Positions 20,036 to 33,195 of a stretch of DNA of 40,990 nucleotides are shown piece by piece. The first letter of the stretch is position 1. Each line of letters opens with the position of its first letter. The DNA lies in the NCBI RefSeq assembly GCF_007988805.1, contig NZ_BJUV01000027.1:1-40990 (forward strand), written 5' to 3'. Source of the DNA: Frigoribacterium faeni. GTDB taxonomy: Bacteria; Actinomycetota; Actinomycetes; Actinomycetales; Microbacteriaceae. Both the position numbers and the translations under genes were made by a program. Below the pieces are notes generated by a model, which saw only the letters and a list, made by a program, of their open reading frames with translations, made no database searches and was not told the DNA's origin.

Positions 20036-20052
20036 GCCTCGCGACACCTCGT

Positions 20053-20097
20053 AACCGGCGCCACACCCCGTTCACTCGGGGTGTGGCGCCGGTTTTC
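20053..20097. terminator. Strong intrinsic terminator after the E2 gene
   Basis: A perfect 18-bp stem (20053-20070 with 20077-20094) with loop TTCACT is followed on the plus strand by TTTT. The core GGCGCCACACCCCG resembles the arm GCGCTACACCC at the window start. Because the opposite arm begins with AA, it could also slow leftward transcription. Confidence 0.85.
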
Positions 20098-20122
20098 GGA
20101 TGCGCGACGTCGGCGCACGGTT

Positions 20123-20158: not shown

Positions 20159-21153
20159 ATGAGAACGTCTCGCGCCCTCCCCCTGCTCGCCCTGCCCGCC
20201 GCGGCGGCACTCGTGCTGAGCGGCTGCTCGTCGAGCCACGACGCGGCCGGGGCCGACGACGGAGGCGCGATCTCGGTGGTCGCGTCCACGAACGTCTACG
20301 GCGACATCGCCCGGACCGTCGGGGGCGACGCGGTCGACGTGACCAGCATCATCAGCGACCCCTCGCAGGACCCGCACTCGTACGAGGCCGACGCCCGCAC
20401 GCAGCTGGCCGTCTCGAAGGCCGACGTCGTGATCGAGAACGGCGGCGGCTACGACGCCTTCGTCGACACGATGCTCAGCGCCGGCGACTCGTCGGCCGCC
20501 GTCGTCACCGCCGTCGACGTCTCGGGCCTCGACCCCGACGCGGAGGGCGACGCGCACTCGGATGACGAGCACGCCGACGAGTCGACCGGGTCGGCCGACG
20601 CCGAGACGGACGAGCACGACCACGACCACGGCGCCTTCAACGAGCACGTCTTCTACAGCCTGCCGAGCATGGCCGCCCTGGCCGACGAGATCGCGCACCG
20701 GCTGGGCGAGGTCGACCCCGCCCAGGCCGACGCGTTCACGGCGAACGCCGCCGCCTTCGGCGAGCGGATCACCGACCTGGAGGCGCAGGTCGAGCAGATC
20801 CACCAGGCCCACGACGGCCAGTCGGTCGCCTACACCGAGCCCGTGCCCGGCTACCTCTTCGACGACATGGGCCTGGTCAACGTGACCCCGGCGTCGTTCT
20901 CGGAGGCCATCGAGGAGGGCGACGACGTCTCGCCCGCCGTGCTGAACGAGACGCTCAAGCTCTTCACGGACGGCCGGGTCGACCTGCTCGCCTACAACGA
21001 GCAGACCTCGAGCCCCGAGACCGAGGCGGTCGAGAGCGCGGCCTCCGACGCGGGTGTCGCGATCGTGCCGGTCACGGAACTCCTCCCGGAGGGGGATGAT
21101 TACATCTCGTGGCAGCAGAGCAACATCGACGCGATCTCGGCGGCACTCGAGAA

Positions 21154-21157
<4 letters not shown>
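20159..21157 (+). CDS. znuA: Zinc ABC transporter substrate-binding lipoprotein
   Basis: A 332-residue cluster A-I metal-binding lipoprotein. The signal peptide ends in the lipobox LVLSGC (Cys at about 22). Metal ligands expected in the family are seen in DPHSYEADA and in the histidine-rich loop DEHDHDHGAFNEH after an acidic, repeat-rich insert. It captures zinc outside the membrane for ZnuB/ZnuC. The mRNA appears leaderless. Manganese is possible for this family, but the Zur box and a zur gene in the same locus favour zinc. Confidence 0.93.
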
Positions 21158-24423: not shown

Positions 24424-24711
24424 ATGGCTGACAAGTCACTGAACCGTACCGAGCTCGTCGCAGCTGTCGCTTCCGAGTCCGGCCAGAGCCAGGCCGCCGT
24501 CAGCGGCGTCGTCGACGCGTTCTTCTCCGTCGTCTCGAAGTCCGTCGCCGACGGCACGAAGGTCACCATCCCCGGATGGATCGCCTTCGAGAAGACGCAC
24601 CGTGCCGCTCGTACCGGCCGCAACCCGCAGACGGGCGAGGCTCTCGAGATCGCTGCGAGCGACAGCGTCAAGGTCAGCGCCGGCAGCAAGCTGAAGGCCG
24701 CTGTCAAGTAG
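24424..24711 (+). CDS. hup: HU-family DNA-binding protein
   Basis: A 95-residue HU/IHF-type protein that bends DNA as a dimer. The family signature is in the arm region, GWIAFEKTHRAARTGRNPQTGE, with the proline-containing tip. It lacks the long lysine-rich tail of mycobacterial and streptomycete HupB/HupS, so it is the short form. AGGAGG stands 8 nt before the ATG, consistent with high expression. Confidence 0.95.
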   Translation: MADKSLNRTELVAAVASESGQSQAAVSGVVDAFFSVVSKSVADGTKVTIPGWIAFEKTHRAARTGRNPQTGEALEIAASDSVKVSAGSKLKAAVK

Positions 24712-24735: not shown

Positions 24736-24766
24736 GGGGGTGTCGACTTCGGTCGCCACCCCCTTT
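24736..24766 (+). terminator. Intrinsic terminator of the HU gene
   Basis: GGGGGTGTCGAC and GTCGCCACCCCC form a 12-bp stem with one mismatch and a TTCG tetraloop, followed by TTT. A 19-bp tandem array begins at the next base. Confidence 0.8.
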
Positions 24767-24861
24767 CGTGCGTCTCGGGGCCTCTCGTGCGTCTCGGGGC
24801 CTTTCGTGCGTCTCGGGGCCTTTCGTGCGTCTCGGGGCATTTCGTGTGTCTCGGGGCCGAA
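24767..24861. repeat. Five tandem 19-bp repeats
   Basis: The unit CGTGCGTCTCGGGGCCTTT occurs five times without gaps, at 24767, 24786, 24805, 24824 and 24843. Copies 2 and 3 are identical; 1, 4 and 5 differ by one to four bases, mostly at the 3' end. The array fills the space between the HU terminator and the promoter of the copD-ctaG gene. The unit length equals that of the other arrays in this window, although the sequence differs. Confidence 0.9.
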
Positions 24862-27439: not shown

Positions 27440-28489
27440 TCAGGCCATCAGCTCGCGCACGCGCGGCACGACCTCGGTGCCGTAGAGCTCGATGCTGCGC
27501 ATCATGTGCTCGTGCGGCAGGCGTCCCATGCTGTAGCGCAGGTCGAACCGGCTCGCGCCGAGCAGCGTGAGGTTCTTCGCGATCTTCTGCGCGACGGTCT
27601 CGGGCGAGCCGACGTAGAGCGCTCCCGTCGGGTTCGCGCTCTGCTCGTACTGCGGGCGCGAGTAGGGCGGCCAGCCGCGCTCACGGCCGAGCTGATTGGT
27701 CTGCTCCTCCTGGTACGGGTAGAGGATCTCCTTGGCCTCGGCGTCGGTCTCGGCGATGAATCCGGGCGAGTGCATGGCGATGGGCTGCGAGGGCTTGCCG
27801 AACTCGGTCAGCGCGCGACGGTAGAGGTCGGCGTAGGGCGCGAACTGGGCCGGCTGACCGCCGATGATCGCGAGGAACAGCGGCAGCCCGTAGTGCGCGG
27901 CCCGGATCACCGACTGCGGCGAGCCGCCGACGCCGACCCAGGTCTTCAGCGTGCCGGACTCGGGGCGCGGGTAGACCCACTGGTCGCTGAGCGACCCGCG
28001 CACGCTGCCCTGCCAGGTCACGGCCTCGTCCTTCAGCAGCTCGGCGAACAGCTCGATCTTCTCCTCGAAGAGCTTCTCGTAGTCCTGGAGGTCGAGGCCG
28101 AACAGCGGGAACGACTCGGTGAACGAACCCCGTCCGAGGATCACCTCCGCGCGACCGTTCGACACGGCGTCGACGGTGGCGAAGCGCTCGTACACGCGCA
28201 CCGGGTCGTCGGAGCTGAGGACGGTGACGGCCGAGCCGAGACGGATCCGCTCGGTGCGGGCGGCGATGGCGGCGAGCACGACCTCGGGGGCCGAGACGGC
28301 GAAGTCGACGCGGTGGTGCTCGCCGACGCCGATGAAGTCGAGTCCGACGCGATCGGCGAGGACGGCCTGCTCGACGAGGTCGCGGATGGCCTGGGCGTGG
28401 GTGACCAGCGTTCCGGCGCCGTCGCCGCTGGCGGGGCGCTCGGTGACGTCGCCGAAGGTGTCGAGGCCGAACTCGAGGGGGTGTGACAT
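27440..28489 (-). CDS. LLM-class (luciferase-like) flavin-dependent oxidoreductase
   Basis: A 349-residue TIM-barrel monooxygenase of the bacterial luciferase superfamily. Typical parts are GLDFIGVGEHHRVDFAVSAPEVVLAAIAA near the start, IRLGSAVTVLSSDDPVRVYE, and GRAEVILGRGSFTESFPLFG. It would use reduced FMN or F420; LLM enzymes near this type in actinobacteria are not assigned a substrate. It has an AT-rich upstream region with an inverted repeat, and behind that lies the large repeat array. Confidence 0.9.
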   Translation of the reverse strand: MSHPLEFGLDTFGDVTERPASGDGAGTLVTHAQAIRDLVEQAVLADRVGLDFIGVGEHHRVDFAVSAPEVVLAAIAARTERIRLGSAVTVLSSDDPVRVYERFATVDAVSNGRAEVILGRGSFTESFPLFGLDLQDYEKLFEEKIELFAELLKDEAVTWQGSVRGSLSDQWVYPRPESGTLKTWVGVGGSPQSVIRAAHYGLPLFLAIIGGQPAQFAPYADLYRRALTEFGKPSQPIAMHSPGFIAETDAEAKEILYPYQEEQTNQLGRERGWPPYSRPQYEQSANPTGALYVGSPETVAQKIAKNLTLLGASRFDLRYSMGRLPHEHMMRSIELYGTEVVPRVRELMA

Positions 28490-28511
28490 GGGACTCCTGA
28501 CCGTCTCACTT

Positions 28512-28536
28512 ATTCATACGTTTGCATGAATTGTAC
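28512..28536 (-). promoter_or_regulatory. AT-rich operator/promoter candidate of the LLM gene
   Basis: In a region otherwise rich in G and C, ATTCAT (28512-28517) and ATGAAT (28526-28531) form an imperfect palindrome about 23 bp before the ATG. On the minus strand TACAAT (28535-28530) is a possible -10 or flanking element. The layout suggests control by a TetR- or MarR-type repressor; none is adjacent. Confidence 0.4.
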
Positions 28537-28583
28537 CCGTCGAGGAGGCGCGCGTCCAGTGCCCGGGCGGGTCGCGCCGGGCT

Positions 28584-29344
28584 CATCGCACCGCGTTCCG
28601 TACAGCGCACCCGGACTAGACGCGGCACCGCGCACCCCACGCGGTGCGACGCACGGCACGCCGTGCCGTGTACAAAACGCGGTGCAGTGCACGAGACGCG
28701 GTGCGACGCATCGGCGGCCCCGCCGCACTCACCGCACCGCGTTCCGAACACCGCACCCGGACTAGACGCGGTGCAGCGCACGCCACGCGGTGCGACGCCC
28801 GCGACGCAGTGCAGTGCACGGGATGCGGTGGGGCACACGGAGCCACGCGTGAGGCGTCCCGCCGCGCTCACCGCACCGCGTTCCGTACAGCGCACCCGGA
28901 CTAGGCGCGGCGCAGTGCACGGTACGCGGTGCGACGCCCGCGACGCGGTGCGACGCACGAGACCCGATGCGACGCACGAGACGCGATGCCGTGCACGAGA
29001 AGCGGTGCGGCGCGTCAGCGGCCGCACCGGGCTCACCGCACCGCGTTCCGTGCAGCACACCCGGACTAGACGCGTTGCAGCGCACGGCACGCGGTGCGAC
29101 GCCCAAAACGCGGTGCGGTGCACGAGACGCGGTGCAGTGCACGAGACGCGGTGCGGTGCACGGCACGCCCCGCCGCACCCACCGCACCGCGTTCCGTACA
29201 GGTCACCCGGACTAGACGTGGTGCGGTGCACGGGACGCGGTGCGGCGCGTCGGCGGCCGCGCCGCATCCACCGCACCGCGTTCCGTCTAGCGCACCCGGA
29301 CTAGACGTGGTGCGGTGCACGGGACGCGGTGCGGTGCAGCCGAG
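28584..29344. repeat. Six-module array of 19-bp units with an orientation flip (novel repeat family)
   Basis: About 36 units of 19 bp (11-bp arm + 8-nt spacer) fill this gene-free region. Modules begin at 28584, 28730, 28869, 29034, 29180 and 29269. Each opens with CACCGCACCGC-GTTCCGTA, then CAGCGCACCCG-GACTAGAC, then 5, 4, 6, 5, 2 and 2 units of the inverse arm GCGGTGCRRYG with spacer CACGAGAC or similar. Linkers of 13-25 nt, several GC-palindromic (GCGGCCGC), join modules. The two head arms can pair with any of the following inverse arms, so large alternative stem-loops are expected. No coding potential: 19 is not a multiple of three. The right end is directly 3' of the leftward HD gene. 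Confidence 0.9.
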
Positions 29345-29362
29345 GGTGCGGGCACGGGCGCG

Positions 29363-29983
29363 TCAGGCCGCGGGCAGCTCGTCGAGCGGATTGGCCCGGG
29401 CGCGGGCCGGCAGCCCGGCCCGCACCGACCGGCCCGCCTCGCTCGACGGCTTGCGGTGCGCCTGCTCGGCGGCGAGCGTCGCGAACACGTCGCCGAAGCG
29501 TCCGCGGGGCAGCCGGGCGACGACGGCCGAGACGAACGACGAGTCCCAGTCCCCCGGAGCCGCGCCGCTCACGTCGAGGCTCGTCGCCCGCTCGAGCAGG
29601 TGCCCCTCGACGTCGAGCTCCGCCGACACGGTCGGCCACATGTGCCGCTCGATGACCTCGGCGGTCCGCTGCTGCCGCTCGACATCCCAGCCGGCGCCCG
29701 CGGTGAAGACCCGTGCGACCTCCGCCCCCGACCGCTCGAACGCCACGGTGTGACTGTCGAACTGCGGTGCGAGGCCGACGTCGTGCAGCATCGCCGCCAC
29801 CCAGAGCAGCTCGCCGTCGACGGCGAGGCCCTCCTGCTCGCCGAGCGCCGCGGCGAAGGCGAACGACCGCAGGCTGTGGTCGACGAGGGACGGCGAGGCC
29901 TGCCCGCGCGCCACGGCGAGAGCCCGCTCGGCGGTGGGCGTCGGGGGCGTGAGCAGCCGGTCGAGGTGGGAGGCGTCGATCAT
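29363..29983 (-). CDS. HD-domain protein (cyanamide hydratase/phosphohydrolase-like)
   Basis: A 206-residue HD-superfamily metal-dependent hydrolase. The motif residues are DHSLRSFAFAAAL (first His), WVAAMLHDVGLAP (HD) and the following helix with ERHMWPTVS. The arrangement resembles the Ddi2/3 cyanamide hydratase-like group, although the closest substrate cannot be judged. The ATG at 29983 overlaps the stop of the small membrane gene upstream (ATGA). The 3' end runs into the repeat array. Confidence 0.75.
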   Translation of the reverse strand: MIDASHLDRLLTPPTPTAERALAVARGQASPSLVDHSLRSFAFAAALGEQEGLAVDGELLWVAAMLHDVGLAPQFDSHTVAFERSGAEVARVFTAGAGWDVERQQRTAEVIERHMWPTVSAELDVEGHLLERATSLDVSGAAPGDWDSSFVSAVVARLPRGRFGDVFATLAAEQAHRKPSSEAGRSVRAGLPARARANPLDELPAA

Positions 29984-30257: not shown

Positions 30258-31292
30258 GTGTCGACCATGACCCCTCCGGTGCGTGCCGCCGCCGGCGCGA
30301 CTCCGCTCCCCCGGATGGTCGTCGCGACCCTGGTCGCCGACGGCATCGCTCCGTTCGAGTTCGGGGTGCTCTGCGAGGTGTTCGGCCTCGACCGCAGCGA
30401 CGACGGCGGGCCGGCCTTCGACCACCGCATCGTGACCGAGACCCCCGGCACGATCCGCACGAACCAGGGCTTCGGCATCACCGTCGAGCTCGGCCTCGAG
30501 GCGGCGGCCGAGGCCGACGTGATCTGCGTGCCCGCGCTATGGAACTACGGCATGGCCGGCGGACTCTCCGACGCCGTGCGCACGTTGCTCGTCGAGGCCG
30601 AGGCACGCGGCGCCTGGCTGATCAGCGTCTGCAGCGGCGCGTTCGTCCTCGCCGAGGCCGGCGTGCTCGACGGCCGCCGGTCGACGACGCACTGGCGCTA
30701 CAGTGACCGGCTGCAGTCGGAGTTCCCGGCCACCGAGGTCGACGCCGACGTGCTCTTCGTCGAGGACCGCCGCGTCATCACGAGCGCCGGCACCGCGGCC
30801 GGCATCGACGCGTGCCTGCACTTCGTCCGACGGGTGCACGGCGCGGCCGCCGCGAACGTGATCGCCCGGCGCATGGTCGTACCGGCCCACCGCGACGGCG
30901 GGCAGAGCCAGTTCATCGAGCGGCCGATGCCGACCGAGGTCGAGACATCGCTCGCCCCGCTCACCGACTGGATGCTGGCGCATCTCGACCGCGACCTCCC
31001 CGTGGAGGCGCTGGCCGCCCGGGCGCACATGTCGCCTCGGACCTTCGCCCGCCGATTCAAGGCCGAGCTGGGGACGACGCCGGGCGCCTGGTTGACGTCG
31101 CAGCGCCTCCTGCGGTCGCAGCAGCTGCTCGAGAGCACGAACCTCGGGCTCGACGCGATCGCCGACGAGGTCGGGTTCGGGTCGGCGGCGGTGCTGCGGC
31201 ACCACTTCGGGCGCGTGCTCGGCACGACGCCGCGGGCGTATCGGGCGGCGTTCGCGTGCCCGGCGGATGCGCCTCAGCTCGAGCTCGCCTGA
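30258..31292 (+). CDS. GlxA-family AraC-type transcriptional regulator
   Basis: A 344-residue regulator with an N-terminal DJ-1/PfpI-like amidotransferase domain (about 18-190; the nucleophile-elbow region is ISVCSGAFVLAEAG) and a C-terminal AraC DNA-binding domain (about 235-330) with two HTH units; RTFARRFKAELGTTPGAWL and DEVGFGSAAVLRHHFGRVLGTTPRAYR are the recognition parts. A GAGGAG lies 6 nt before the GTG at 30258. Divergent from the small-membrane/HD operon, which it probably controls. The ligand is unknown. Confidence 0.9.
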   Translation: MSTMTPPVRAAAGATPLPRMVVATLVADGIAPFEFGVLCEVFGLDRSDDGGPAFDHRIVTETPGTIRTNQGFGITVELGLEAAAEADVICVPALWNYGMAGGLSDAVRTLLVEAEARGAWLISVCSGAFVLAEAGVLDGRRSTTHWRYSDRLQSEFPATEVDADVLFVEDRRVITSAGTAAGIDACLHFVRRVHGAAAANVIARRMVVPAHRDGGQSQFIERPMPTEVETSLAPLTDWMLAHLDRDLPVEALAARAHMSPRTFARRFKAELGTTPGAWLTSQRLLRSQQLLESTNLGLDAIADEVGFGSAAVLRHHFGRVLGTTPRAYRAAFACPADAPQLELA

Positions 31293-31313
31293 CCGCGCCG
31301 CGGTGGCGCCGCA

Positions 31314-31402
31314 CACCGCACCGCGGAACGGGCACCGCACCGCGGAACGGACACCGCACCGCGACTAGGAGCGGTGCGGTGACCGGAACGCGGTGCAGAC
31401 CG
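31314..31402. repeat. 19-bp array with GACTAG flip between convergent genes
   Basis: Units: CACCGCACCGC-GGAACGGG (31314), CACCGCACCGC-GGAACGGA (31333), CACCGCACCGC-GACTAGGA (31352), then flipped GCGGTGCGGTG-ACCGGAAC (31371) and GCGGTGC (31390). The arms and the CTAG-bearing flip unit are those of the 28584-29344 array. Pairing of forward and flipped arms gives a stable hairpin. It lies at the 3' ends of both the glxA-type gene and the membrane gene 31415-32128. Confidence 0.88.
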
Positions 31403-31414
31403 CCCAGCGAGCCC

Positions 31415-32128
31415 TCAGCGGGCGGGTTCAGCGGCGTCATGACGACGGCGCGCGATCCGCGCGAAGAACGCCGTCGCGAGCCCGACCGCGACCAGCACGG
31501 CCGCGACGCCGCTGACCACCTGACCCACCGGGTAGGCGCCGGGCGCCACGAGGGTGACGAGCCCGAGCACGAGACGGACCAGCGCGAGCACCCCGCCCGC
31601 GGTGAGGAACGCCGAGGTCACCCGCGTGCTCGTCTGCGAGCTCCGCAGCCCGCGCGCGACGTGCGGCAGCAGCAGAGCGAAGACGTAGGCGGGGTAGGCC
31701 GTCGCCACCGTCGAGTACAGGCGGACGAGCGGCTGGTCGAGGTCGGCCGCGAGGTCCGCGGACCGGGCGCCCGCGTCGACCACGACGAAGACCACGACCT
31801 CGACCACGAACAGCCCCGCGAAGACGGCGACGCCGGGCCAGCCCGAGACGAGCCGCTGCGTGCGCGGGGCGTCGTAGGCGCGGGCGACCTGCGTGCCGGC
31901 CAGCAGCAGACCGGTGAAGAGCAGCAGCTTCGCCACGAGGTCGGTGGCGTTCACGATCGGCAGGAGGCGGTCGACGGCCTCGTAGACCGGCGCGGTGATC
32001 AGCGCGAAGGCCAGCGCGATCGCGACGGCCGATGCGGCGATGAGCGGGTTCCGTCCGCGGATGGCCCCGGGGAGGCGCGTGAGAGCCAGCGCCGCCAGCA
32101 CGACGACGATGAAGAATGCGATGGTCAT
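31415..32128 (-). CDS. Seven-helix membrane protein of unknown function
   Basis: A 237-residue protein with about seven hydrophobic segments and short polar loops. I do not recognise a catalytic motif; the profile resembles the actinobacterial seven-helix proteins that sit beside an HTH regulator. The start lies 1 nt after the stop of the HTH gene upstream (32130), so the two form one transcription unit and probably work together as a sensor/regulator pair. That role is inferred from context only. Confidence 0.65.
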   Translation of the reverse strand: MTIAFFIVVVLAALALTRLPGAIRGRNPLIAASAVAIALAFALITAPVYEAVDRLLPIVNATDLVAKLLLFTGLLLAGTQVARAYDAPRTQRLVSGWPGVAVFAGLFVVEVVVFVVVDAGARSADLAADLDQPLVRLYSTVATAYPAYVFALLLPHVARGLRSSQTSTRVTSAFLTAGGVLALVRLVLGLVTLVAPGAYPVGQVVSGVAAVLVAVGLATAFFARIARRRHDAAEPAR

Positions 32129-32864: not shown

Positions 32865-33134
32865 GCACACCTCCTCTCACCACGTCGGGGGCACGCGATC
32901 GACGCGGCGCGAGCGGATCATGCTCGACTTCTGTCATTCTCGCAGGATCTATGTATTGTTGACACCGGGGAAGCGCCGCGCACGGTCGATTGCCAGAGCA
33001 ACAAGAGGGATGCGTCACGGGGGTGACGACTCGACGACAGTAGTCGAGCCGGACGGCAGGGCCGTGCGCAGGCGCTCCCGCCACTCGCTTCGCGGCCAGG
33101 GCCGCAGCCGGAGCCGGATCTACAGCACCACGCG

Positions 33135-33195
33135 ATGGGCACAGCGCCAGGCTTTCTCCTGGCGCGGTGCCCATTTCCTGGCGCCGTGCCCCAGG
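33135..33195. repeat. Hairpin followed by 19-bp direct repeat
   Basis: ATGGGCACAGCGCCAGG (33135-33151) pairs with CCTGGCGCGGTGCCCAT (33158-33174) with one mismatch and a 6-nt loop; TT follows. The right arm then repeats 19 bp later: CCTGGCGCGGTGCCCATTT (33158) and CCTGGCGCCGTGCCCCAGG (33177). This is the same plan (inverted arm, then direct 19-bp repeats of the complementary arm) as at 1-59. No gene precedes it on the plus strand, so it may end or attenuate a short transcript. Confidence 0.7.

Follow-up and report, generated by a model that had tools for sequence, protein, structure and literature searches.

We identified, in a window of 40,990 nucleotides from Frigoribacterium faeni (contig NZ_BJUV01000027.1, the whole stretch of DNA that was analysed), a modular array of 19-bp units at 28584-29344 that is, on balance, probably the local amplification of a dispersed, non-autonomous, REP-like palindrome. 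The boxes of this palindrome would be read by a protein, the element would be copied whole, and its copies would survive behind genes. A sequence-only reading had taken the array itself as the basic architecture; it is instead an amplified form of a single palindrome of 60-68 bp, and relatives carry the same design singly, as 60-bp palindromes that are ungapped with few exceptions. Frigoribacterium belongs to the Microbacteriaceae (Micrococcales). The finding brings dispersed palindromic repeats, in a form with clear-cut rules, to this family and to genomes outside it, and it gives an opening onto a long-standing problem, namely what moves and maintains REP-like repeats without a RAYT.

Counted by eye on the unit list, the array has six modules (Table 1) with 36 units of 19 bp between them, each module built from two head boxes, a centre with ACTAG and then inverted tail boxes (5, 4, 6, 5, 2 and 2 in modules 1 to 6, so that 12 heads and 24 tails make up the 36). 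The plan of two heads followed by two to six units of the inverse arm, as read from the letters alone, is borne out by both the unit list and a box scan, in which 32 array boxes scored at least 7 bits; degenerate tail boxes lie at 28621, 28659, 28824, 28963 and 29071. The exact 19-bp register described over 760 bp holds for the 36 units inside the modules and is reset at module borders: the module lengths are 146, 139, 165, 146, 89 and 76 bp, the first five being 13 or 6 bases away from a multiple of 19. Identity at lag 19 reached 0.558 versus 0.309 in shuffled arrays (highest among 2000 shuffles, 0.365), and TRF reported 19-bp units together with larger modules of period 89, 146 and 165. The inverse arms can pair, as had been supposed: two 60-base cores of the array folded at -30 to -37 kcal/mol (z -3.1 to -4.8), less stably than three elements that relatives carry singly (-48 to -61 kcal/mol, z -8.6 to -9.6). 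The layout of 19-bp units in inverted halves, in place of direct repeats with unique long spacers, sets the array apart from CRISPR, and its modular inverted plan sets it apart from an ordinary minisatellite, both as the sequence-only reading had argued. A simple gene caller found no genes in 28490-29362, and CRISPR, minisatellite and coding explanations were ruled out on anatomy. Rfam returned no match at gathering score in the window; in eight element-bearing loci it gave 16 matches up to E 1, but not one of these exceeded its gathering score. The scores in Table 1 come from two covariance models, R1, made from 20 sequences (16 from relatives and four from the window), and R2, built on 72 diverse rows.

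Table 1. Array modules, neighbouring genes and further element copies in the window.
Feature	Position	Strand	Remarks
Module 1	28584..28729	+	Five tails, some degenerate; 60-bp core 28588-28647; R1 51.2, R2 39.7 bits
Module 2	28730..28868	+	Four tails, last poor; core 28734-28793; R1 67.7, R2 62.2 bits
Module 3	28869..29033	+	Six tails; core 28873-28932; R1 73.7, R2 64.6 bits
Module 4	29034..29179	+	Five tails; core 29038-29097; R1 67.4, R2 57.9 bits
Module 5	29180..29268	+	Two tails, the basic four-box element; core 29184-29243; R1 74.4, R2 66.9 bits
Module 6	29269..29344	+	Two tails; core 29273-29332; R1 76.5, R2 60.3 bits
HD-domain gene	29363..29983	-	PF01966, 36.8 bits; array follows its 3' end
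Luciferase-like monooxygenase (LLM) gene	27440..28489	-	PF00296, 181.3 bits; other side of array
Sigma-70-like promoter candidate of LLM gene	28530..28558	-	9/12 matches, 0.0 expected in shuffles; consensus match only
Single four-box element	31337..31396	.	R1 53.3, R2 57.3 bits; between convergent genes 30315-31292 and 31415-32128
Element of another subfamily (GCACCACGCGATGGGCACAGCGCCA)	33125..33184	.	R1 36.4, R2 42.9 bits; divergent spacer
Weaker member or ordinary hairpin	20044..20103	.	Followed by TTTT; R1 25.8, R2 46.1 bits
Partial element at contig end	1..46	.	R2 36.2 bits; truncated 5'

The array fills the intergenic stretch that runs from the HD-domain stop codon to the LLM start, both genes being on the minus strand, with 18 bases between module 6 and the HD stop codon and the LLM promoter candidate about 25 bases outside the array. 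Homologues of the HD gene are present in 16/16 Frigoribacterium genomes (the nearest named relative of the HD protein, 81% identical, is in Frigoribacterium sp. CFBP 13712, one of 23 loci found in a search that may leave out records very close to the window itself). In 12/15 relatives the LLM orthologue is the neighbour of this gene within the flanks examined; in genome G002 it lies about 4 kb away. The HD-LLM spacers of those 12 relatives measure 74-227 bp versus 876 in the window, and the array is absent from all of them. One of the 12 (G005) contains an R2 match to an element of another subfamily, and G014, which is outside the 12, carries an element behind its HD gene that is likewise of a subfamily other than that of the array. 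The array is therefore species-specific in this sample, yet the 3' site of the HD gene has been used more than once. Elsewhere in the window, the element at 31337 adjoins a 19-bp tandem of head-like units (31313-31363, TRF), and the weaker candidate at 20044 lies between a stop codon and the gene at 20159-21157. The contig begins inside an element and many array matches of the own genome lie at contig ends; arrays probably break the draft assembly.

The element of the relatives follows a strict layout of box, box, centre, inverted box and inverted box, with 12-bp boxes of the form CRYnnnACCnnG at a distance of 19 bp. It measures 60 bp, or 68 bp when its conserved CRYC ends are counted, the longer form reading box, 7 bp, box, 6 bp, inverted box, 7 bp, inverted box. 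Many subfamilies share this core and differ at the other positions (for example, GCACCGCGTTTCGTGCAC, GAACCGCGTTCCGAACCATG, GCACCCGGTTTCGAACGATG and ACACCCCGTTCGCCGCACGA). The arrays of the own genome obey the rule [head 19]n - 18 - [tail 19]m. With boxes of 8 bits or more in 31 clusters, the step between boxes of one direction measured 19 bp in 190 of at least 237 cases, and the head-to-tail turn measured 18 bp in 57/71. The window array is one of these 31 clusters with six or more boxes, which come from 27 own-genome stretches picked for array matches. Connector lengths between modules vary among arrays and recur within several (42 and 47 in L062, 54 in L065, 24 in L076), a pattern that we read as local tandem duplication. 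The arrays of this genome would have grown in 19-bp steps, by slippage during replication or by unequal exchange, and also by tandem duplication of whole modules.

The sequence-only reading had proposed to scan the genome and related Microbacteriaceae with a profile of the 19-bp unit; scans with the array DNA and with R1 and R2 found the element dispersed throughout the genus. The array DNA matched 144 places in its own genome. In a search of 60 genomes, with 8 candidates scored in each, it matched at least 19 (the own genome, 12/15 relatives of the same genus and six others that had a single weak match apiece). R1 detected 15/16 genus genomes at E <= 1e-3 and R2 detected 16/16 at E <= 1e-4, both surveys leaning to the kin of the array because they were seeded from array matches. 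Strand-wise R2 matches, in which one site can count on both strands, ranged from 48 to at least 150 per genome, and 48 were found in G002, the genome with no R1 match. At E <= 1e-5, R2 matched at least 10/199 Microbacteriaceae genomes, four of them Frigoribacterium, in 4/85 genera, and at least 19/297 genomes of the order, the own genome among them; strict filters were applied and few candidates scored in both surveys, and the true numbers may be higher. Most genomes at the order level had one to five matches, and several of those inspected (L231, L236 and L238) were poor palindromes. The clear case outside the Microbacteriaceae is G341, a genome of another family, in which 9/10 sites start with CATGAAACCGGG, GACC recurs at +19 in 10/10 and the last G of the second box is kept in 6/10, while the variable letters of the two boxes differ. 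None of 22 loci from Curtobacterium, Microbacterium and others gave an R2 match at E <= 0.1, so R2 is not a general hairpin detector.

Arms and boxes covary. We aligned 72 rows (70 from three relatives and two of the six window modules, with 12 omitted by hand: L102, L105, L107, L109:1580, L113:3231, three of L047, L054, L134 and two of L144) and found changes on both sides in 22/26 stem pairs, with 312 double-changed cells versus 99.8 in shuffles (0/500 shuffles reached 312) and only 40-84 when the structure was slid. A scripted run on 81 of 82 rows gave the same picture. Covariation fell short of significance in a set of 20 sequences, most of them from one subfamily (87.3 versus 86.5% paired, reached by 73/500 shuffles; covariation score reached by 31/500). 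In the GAACC subfamily, 29 arm pairs contained 19 identical changes in both arms versus 3.6 shuffled (0/2000 reached 19) and 41 changes that were one-armed or different between arms, so the arms are kept alike, though imperfectly. Further, within an arm, box 1 and box 2 carry the same letter at lag 19 more often than column composition predicts (81 elements with 162 arms; mean excess 0.105; 11/15 positions with z > 3). The remaining 21 lags between 6 and 27 are a fair control, because the relatedness of the rows is retained there; they gave means of -0.020 to 0.013 and 0-3 positions above z 3, with single positions up to z 7.0. The linker positions beside the box (y 9-11) showed a weaker lag-19 excess (z 2.1-3.7). 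Hairpin pairing ties arm to arm without requiring agreement of box 1 with box 2. The covariation of the two boxes suggests that one protein may read the box, with one specificity used four times. The dimeric or oligomeric DNA-binding protein put forward from the letters alone gains support from this lag-19 signal, and no binding protein was identified.

The same data bear on a neutral account, in which template switching keeps arms alike, slippage keeps 19-bp units alike, insertion at 3' ends is tolerated and no dedicated protein takes part. Template switching homogenises the arms of inverted repeats, according to the part of PMC8604942 consulted. Both the arm-arm and the box-box likeness could partly stem from this process, off-register switching could mimic the box-box covariation, and the excess of identical changes in both GAACC arms and the growth of arrays by 19-bp steps agree with it. 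The neutral account leaves unexplained, however, the near-identical copies at many chromosomal positions, the persistence of the CRY...ACC...G core across subfamilies and in the genome of another family, and the fixed 60-bp layout, and we regard it as quite improbable.

Mapping of the copies against gene ends, a check proposed together with the first description of the array, revealed a preference for 3' ends and convergent genes. Among 82 R1 matches in the relatives G015, G007 and G012, at loci chosen for carrying an element and with three shortened matches omitted (L100, L105:2439 and L056:2819), 45 were in convergent, 24 in same-direction and 6 in divergent spacers, 6 were intragenic and 1 was at an edge. 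Counted as spacers, these were 35 convergent, 21 tandem and 6 divergent (35 versus 6, p = 5e-6). An even sample of 400 kb of G007 had an element in 7/57 convergent, 0/55 divergent and 5/237 tandem spacers (convergent versus divergent, p = 0.013), and one gene there bears three elements. Placement was similar in other Microbacteriaceae genera (15 convergent, 6 tandem, 0 divergent and 2 inside genes for the 23 with gene context, five further loci being without) and in other families (11 convergent, 8 tandem, 0 divergent and 1 edge for 20 chosen matches, with gene calls resting on the Frigoribacterium codon model). The own genome had 13 convergent, 17 tandem and 5 divergent spacers, 1 gene and 6 edges. 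Elements in tandem spacers lay closer to the upstream stop in 21/24 cases in the relatives (median 43.5 bp) and in 22/40 in the own genome (median 186.5 bp). The six intragenic elements are all in orthologous ABC-transporter-like genes of G015 and G007, and the own genome and G005 have one element each in that gene. In all copies of the gene the element sits in a linker and the frame is open throughout; the G007 subfamilies are unlike those of the other genomes.

This placement invites the explanation that the elements are functional two-way terminators or 3'-end stabilisers under selection that serve both converging genes, the array being a strengthened barrier that separates the HD gene from the next promoter. 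The array does sit between a stop codon and a promoter-like site, and in 16/35 convergent spacers of the three genomes a single element leaves <50 bp on each side, hence little room for another long hairpin. The stems nevertheless lack a T-tract, as judged from composition in 160 flanks of relatives' elements. A stem with a T-tract is found nowhere in the array (the weak member at 20044 does carry TTTT), and the sole terminator-like site in 28400-29500, at 28489, lies outside it. Nor was an excess of G.U over A.C on the sense strand significant, the counts being 19 versus 25 in tandem spacers of relatives, 82 versus 43 in related array copies of the own genome and 105 versus 78 pooled (p = 0.054). 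These counts give no clear support to the structured RNA that had been among the roles first considered. A hairpin also needs neither a conserved box nor lag-19 covariation, an element occupies only 7 of the 57 convergent spacers sampled in G007, and distant species share few sites. We therefore hold selected two-way termination to be possible but doubtful. With neither a T-tract nor a clear wobble bias, a route through RNA is not favoured by the sequence data; a role of the array or elements as a transcription barrier is possible, and the placement at 3' ends makes it directly testable.

The unit of dispersal is the whole element. The GAACC arm pattern (<=3 mismatches) had 30 forward and 30 reverse matches in G007 and G004, and 29 of the forward matches had an inverted partner at exactly +36 versus 0 for a control pattern. 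The two unpaired matches proved on inspection to be complete 60-bp elements (R2 51.7 and 62.3 bits). All 31 places in these two genomes are, thus, complete elements, and no lone GAACC arm flanks a gene in either. This matters for the proposal that the elements are MITEs consisting of terminal inverted repeats only, that is, two abutting inverted transposon ends with a transposase binding two boxes per end. The two boxes per arm, the strict arm pairing and the subfamilies with many near-identical copies fit such an origin, and the element resembles MITEs in being short and dispersed, with inverted ends and no coding capacity. It differs from them in having almost no spacer between its ends, and no parent transposon was found in a search with one subfamily in two genomes. 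No convincing target duplication was seen at 104 sites (1296 combinations of lengths 2-10 and offsets 0-11): the best row by z (3.4) had 0 full matches versus 1.4 expected, and the 15 best rows had small full-match counts (e.g., 7 versus 3.2, or 15 versus 9.6 for two bases). No transposase was recognised by eye in the 14 largest clusters of neighbour genes. With these results and no lone GAACC arm in the two genomes, we consider the MITE proposal unlikely. A RAYT-driven REP was ruled out, as the RAYT-type Y1 transposase (PF01797) was found in 0/16 genus genomes while the control was found in 5/14 named genomes. The second-largest neighbour cluster, AbiEi-like, accounted for 5/251 neighbour genes versus 2/365 background genes (p = 0.13). 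Of its members, one passes the cut-off of Pfam AbiEi_4 (27.6 bits versus 25), two match AbiEi_1 below cut-off and two match nothing. One AbiEi-antitoxin-like gene of G007 (L125, 426-1466) is flanked by two elements (359-1632) that stand 1,214 bp from each other, and two elements of G004 (C1:190317-191590) are spaced at the identical distance. Neither plasmids nor phages had an element match, and viral contigs had none to the exact pattern of one subfamily.

Sites turn over between species. Among R1-detected sites in the examined stretches, the own genome (31 sites) and G015 (29) have one spacer and one gene in common, G015 and G012 (20) have two spacers in common, and with G007 (17 sites) only the gene is common. 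Conserved position as a sign of function is, therefore, unsupported, few sites being common to distant species. Between the close genomes G013 and G015, seven locus pairs were 96-100% identical where aligned and carried the same elements in the aligned parts; five such pairs and G002 provided no clean empty site. In one comparison, L098 (1582) and L153 (1581), the sequences diverge completely about 12 bases after the common element, and L098 has a second element beyond the divergence point. Two nearly identical genomes here show a rearrangement border beside an element. On the sequences compared, the turnover pattern fits slow mobility better than a fixed function at each site.

Several known systems share features with the element. 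Integron attC sites are palindromes with two box pairs whose pairing is conserved over their sequence; the element likewise keeps its pairing while its sequence varies and has two box pairs, and it differs in that no cassette arrays were seen. The claim that no described family has this plan agrees with Rfam at gathering score and with a literature search at summary level, which found no named family or description of a four-box element. The contrast first drawn with REP/BIME was, however, overdrawn. In the portion of PMC3733652 consulted, REPs are likewise dispersed short palindromes with inverted pairing, they prefer convergent or same-direction spacers near 3' ends, and some copies are intragenic; the preference for convergent genes is also described in the part of PMC1525189 consulted. 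Like REPs, REPINs and BIMEs, the element forms several subfamilies per genome and occurs in inverted pairs and clusters, and it is REP-like in the general sense of a dispersed palindrome at gene 3' ends in convergent and same-direction spacers. It lacks the tag, size and RAYT link of REPs: a GTAG or CGTC REP is a stem-loop of 20-40 bp with an unpaired tag at one end, whereas our unit spans 60-68 bp, holds four 12-bp boxes at a spacing of 19 bp, has CRYC at both ends, where it can pair with GRYG, and occurs in 16 genus genomes without the Y1 transposase of the RAYT-linked GTAG REPs. The portion of PMC3733652 consulted describes CGTC REPs as also without a known dedicated transposase, mentions untagged REP-like repeats of M. 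tuberculosis, and neither names an actinobacterial GTAG/CGTC family nor contains the word 'actinobacteria'. Rickettsia palindromic elements (RPEs), in the part of PMC10969869 consulted, are palindromes of about 150 bp that encode a conserved peptide and are often intragenic. The element resembles them in its in-frame copies, in the linker of the ABC-transporter-like gene of four species with different subfamilies; it is unlike them in its length and in being intragenic in only 6/82 cases, all in two orthologous genes. Set against these sources, the REP-like behaviour is already known, and for the four-box grammar without REP tag, size or RAYT link we found no description.

From this grammar we infer the following mechanism for the amplified palindrome that we favour. 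The four boxes would be read by a sequence-specific DNA-binding protein, probably as a tetramer or as dimers in pairs, and its specificity would have drifted between subfamilies, so that the boxes of one element change together. This protein, or a partner, would copy or insert the whole element. The copies would survive mainly behind genes, sparing promoters, and may act there as two-way transcription barriers. Against this reading stand the facts that no mobiliser was found, no neighbour family is clearly linked and no binding protein was identified. The non-significant covariation in the set of 20 sequences, the wide spread of tandem-spacer elements in the own genome (only 22/40 nearer the upstream stop) and the differing variable letters of the two boxes in G341 also count against it. 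A bolder version, which we put forward tentatively and think less probable, is that an unrecognised oligomeric protein binds the four 12-bp boxes in 19-bp steps outward from the fixed centre, copies the element with no transposase of the classical kind and changes its specificity from one subfamily to another; such a protein could spread along arrays. Subfamilies with matched boxes should make a candidate binding protein findable.

Other repeats and signals were noted alongside the elements. A match resembling the Guanidine-I riboswitch (L114 1642-1749; 47.8 bits, gathering 63) adjoins an element, and ARAGORN called a tRNA-Glu at 27712-27805, inside the LLM gene, that is probably false. The window holds another 19-bp tandem array at 24762-24858, with about five copies of CCTTTCGTGCGTCTCGGGG in direct repeats that are non-palindromic by eye, behind an HU gene (24424-24711, PF00216). 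In G002, the spacer orthologous to 31293-31414 of the window (L148) is without the palindrome and has instead a 19-bp tandem of the unrelated GGGGCGGGTCGGGAGGCGC. A general 19-bp periodicity of intergenic DNA, suspected from these two sites, was unsupported in 400 kb of G007, where 1/109 intergenic TRF rows had period 19 and 10 had period 20. The sequence CGCGCCTCCT(G) recurs in intergenic stretches (L050, L082, L083 and others) and forms a 19-bp tandem in L050. Lastly, L189-L208 of G007 contain intergenic repeats of period 20 (10 TRF rows), many with CGGCGGGTTCCCG or ACCCGCCCTCGA, which are possibly another repeat class of similar plan.
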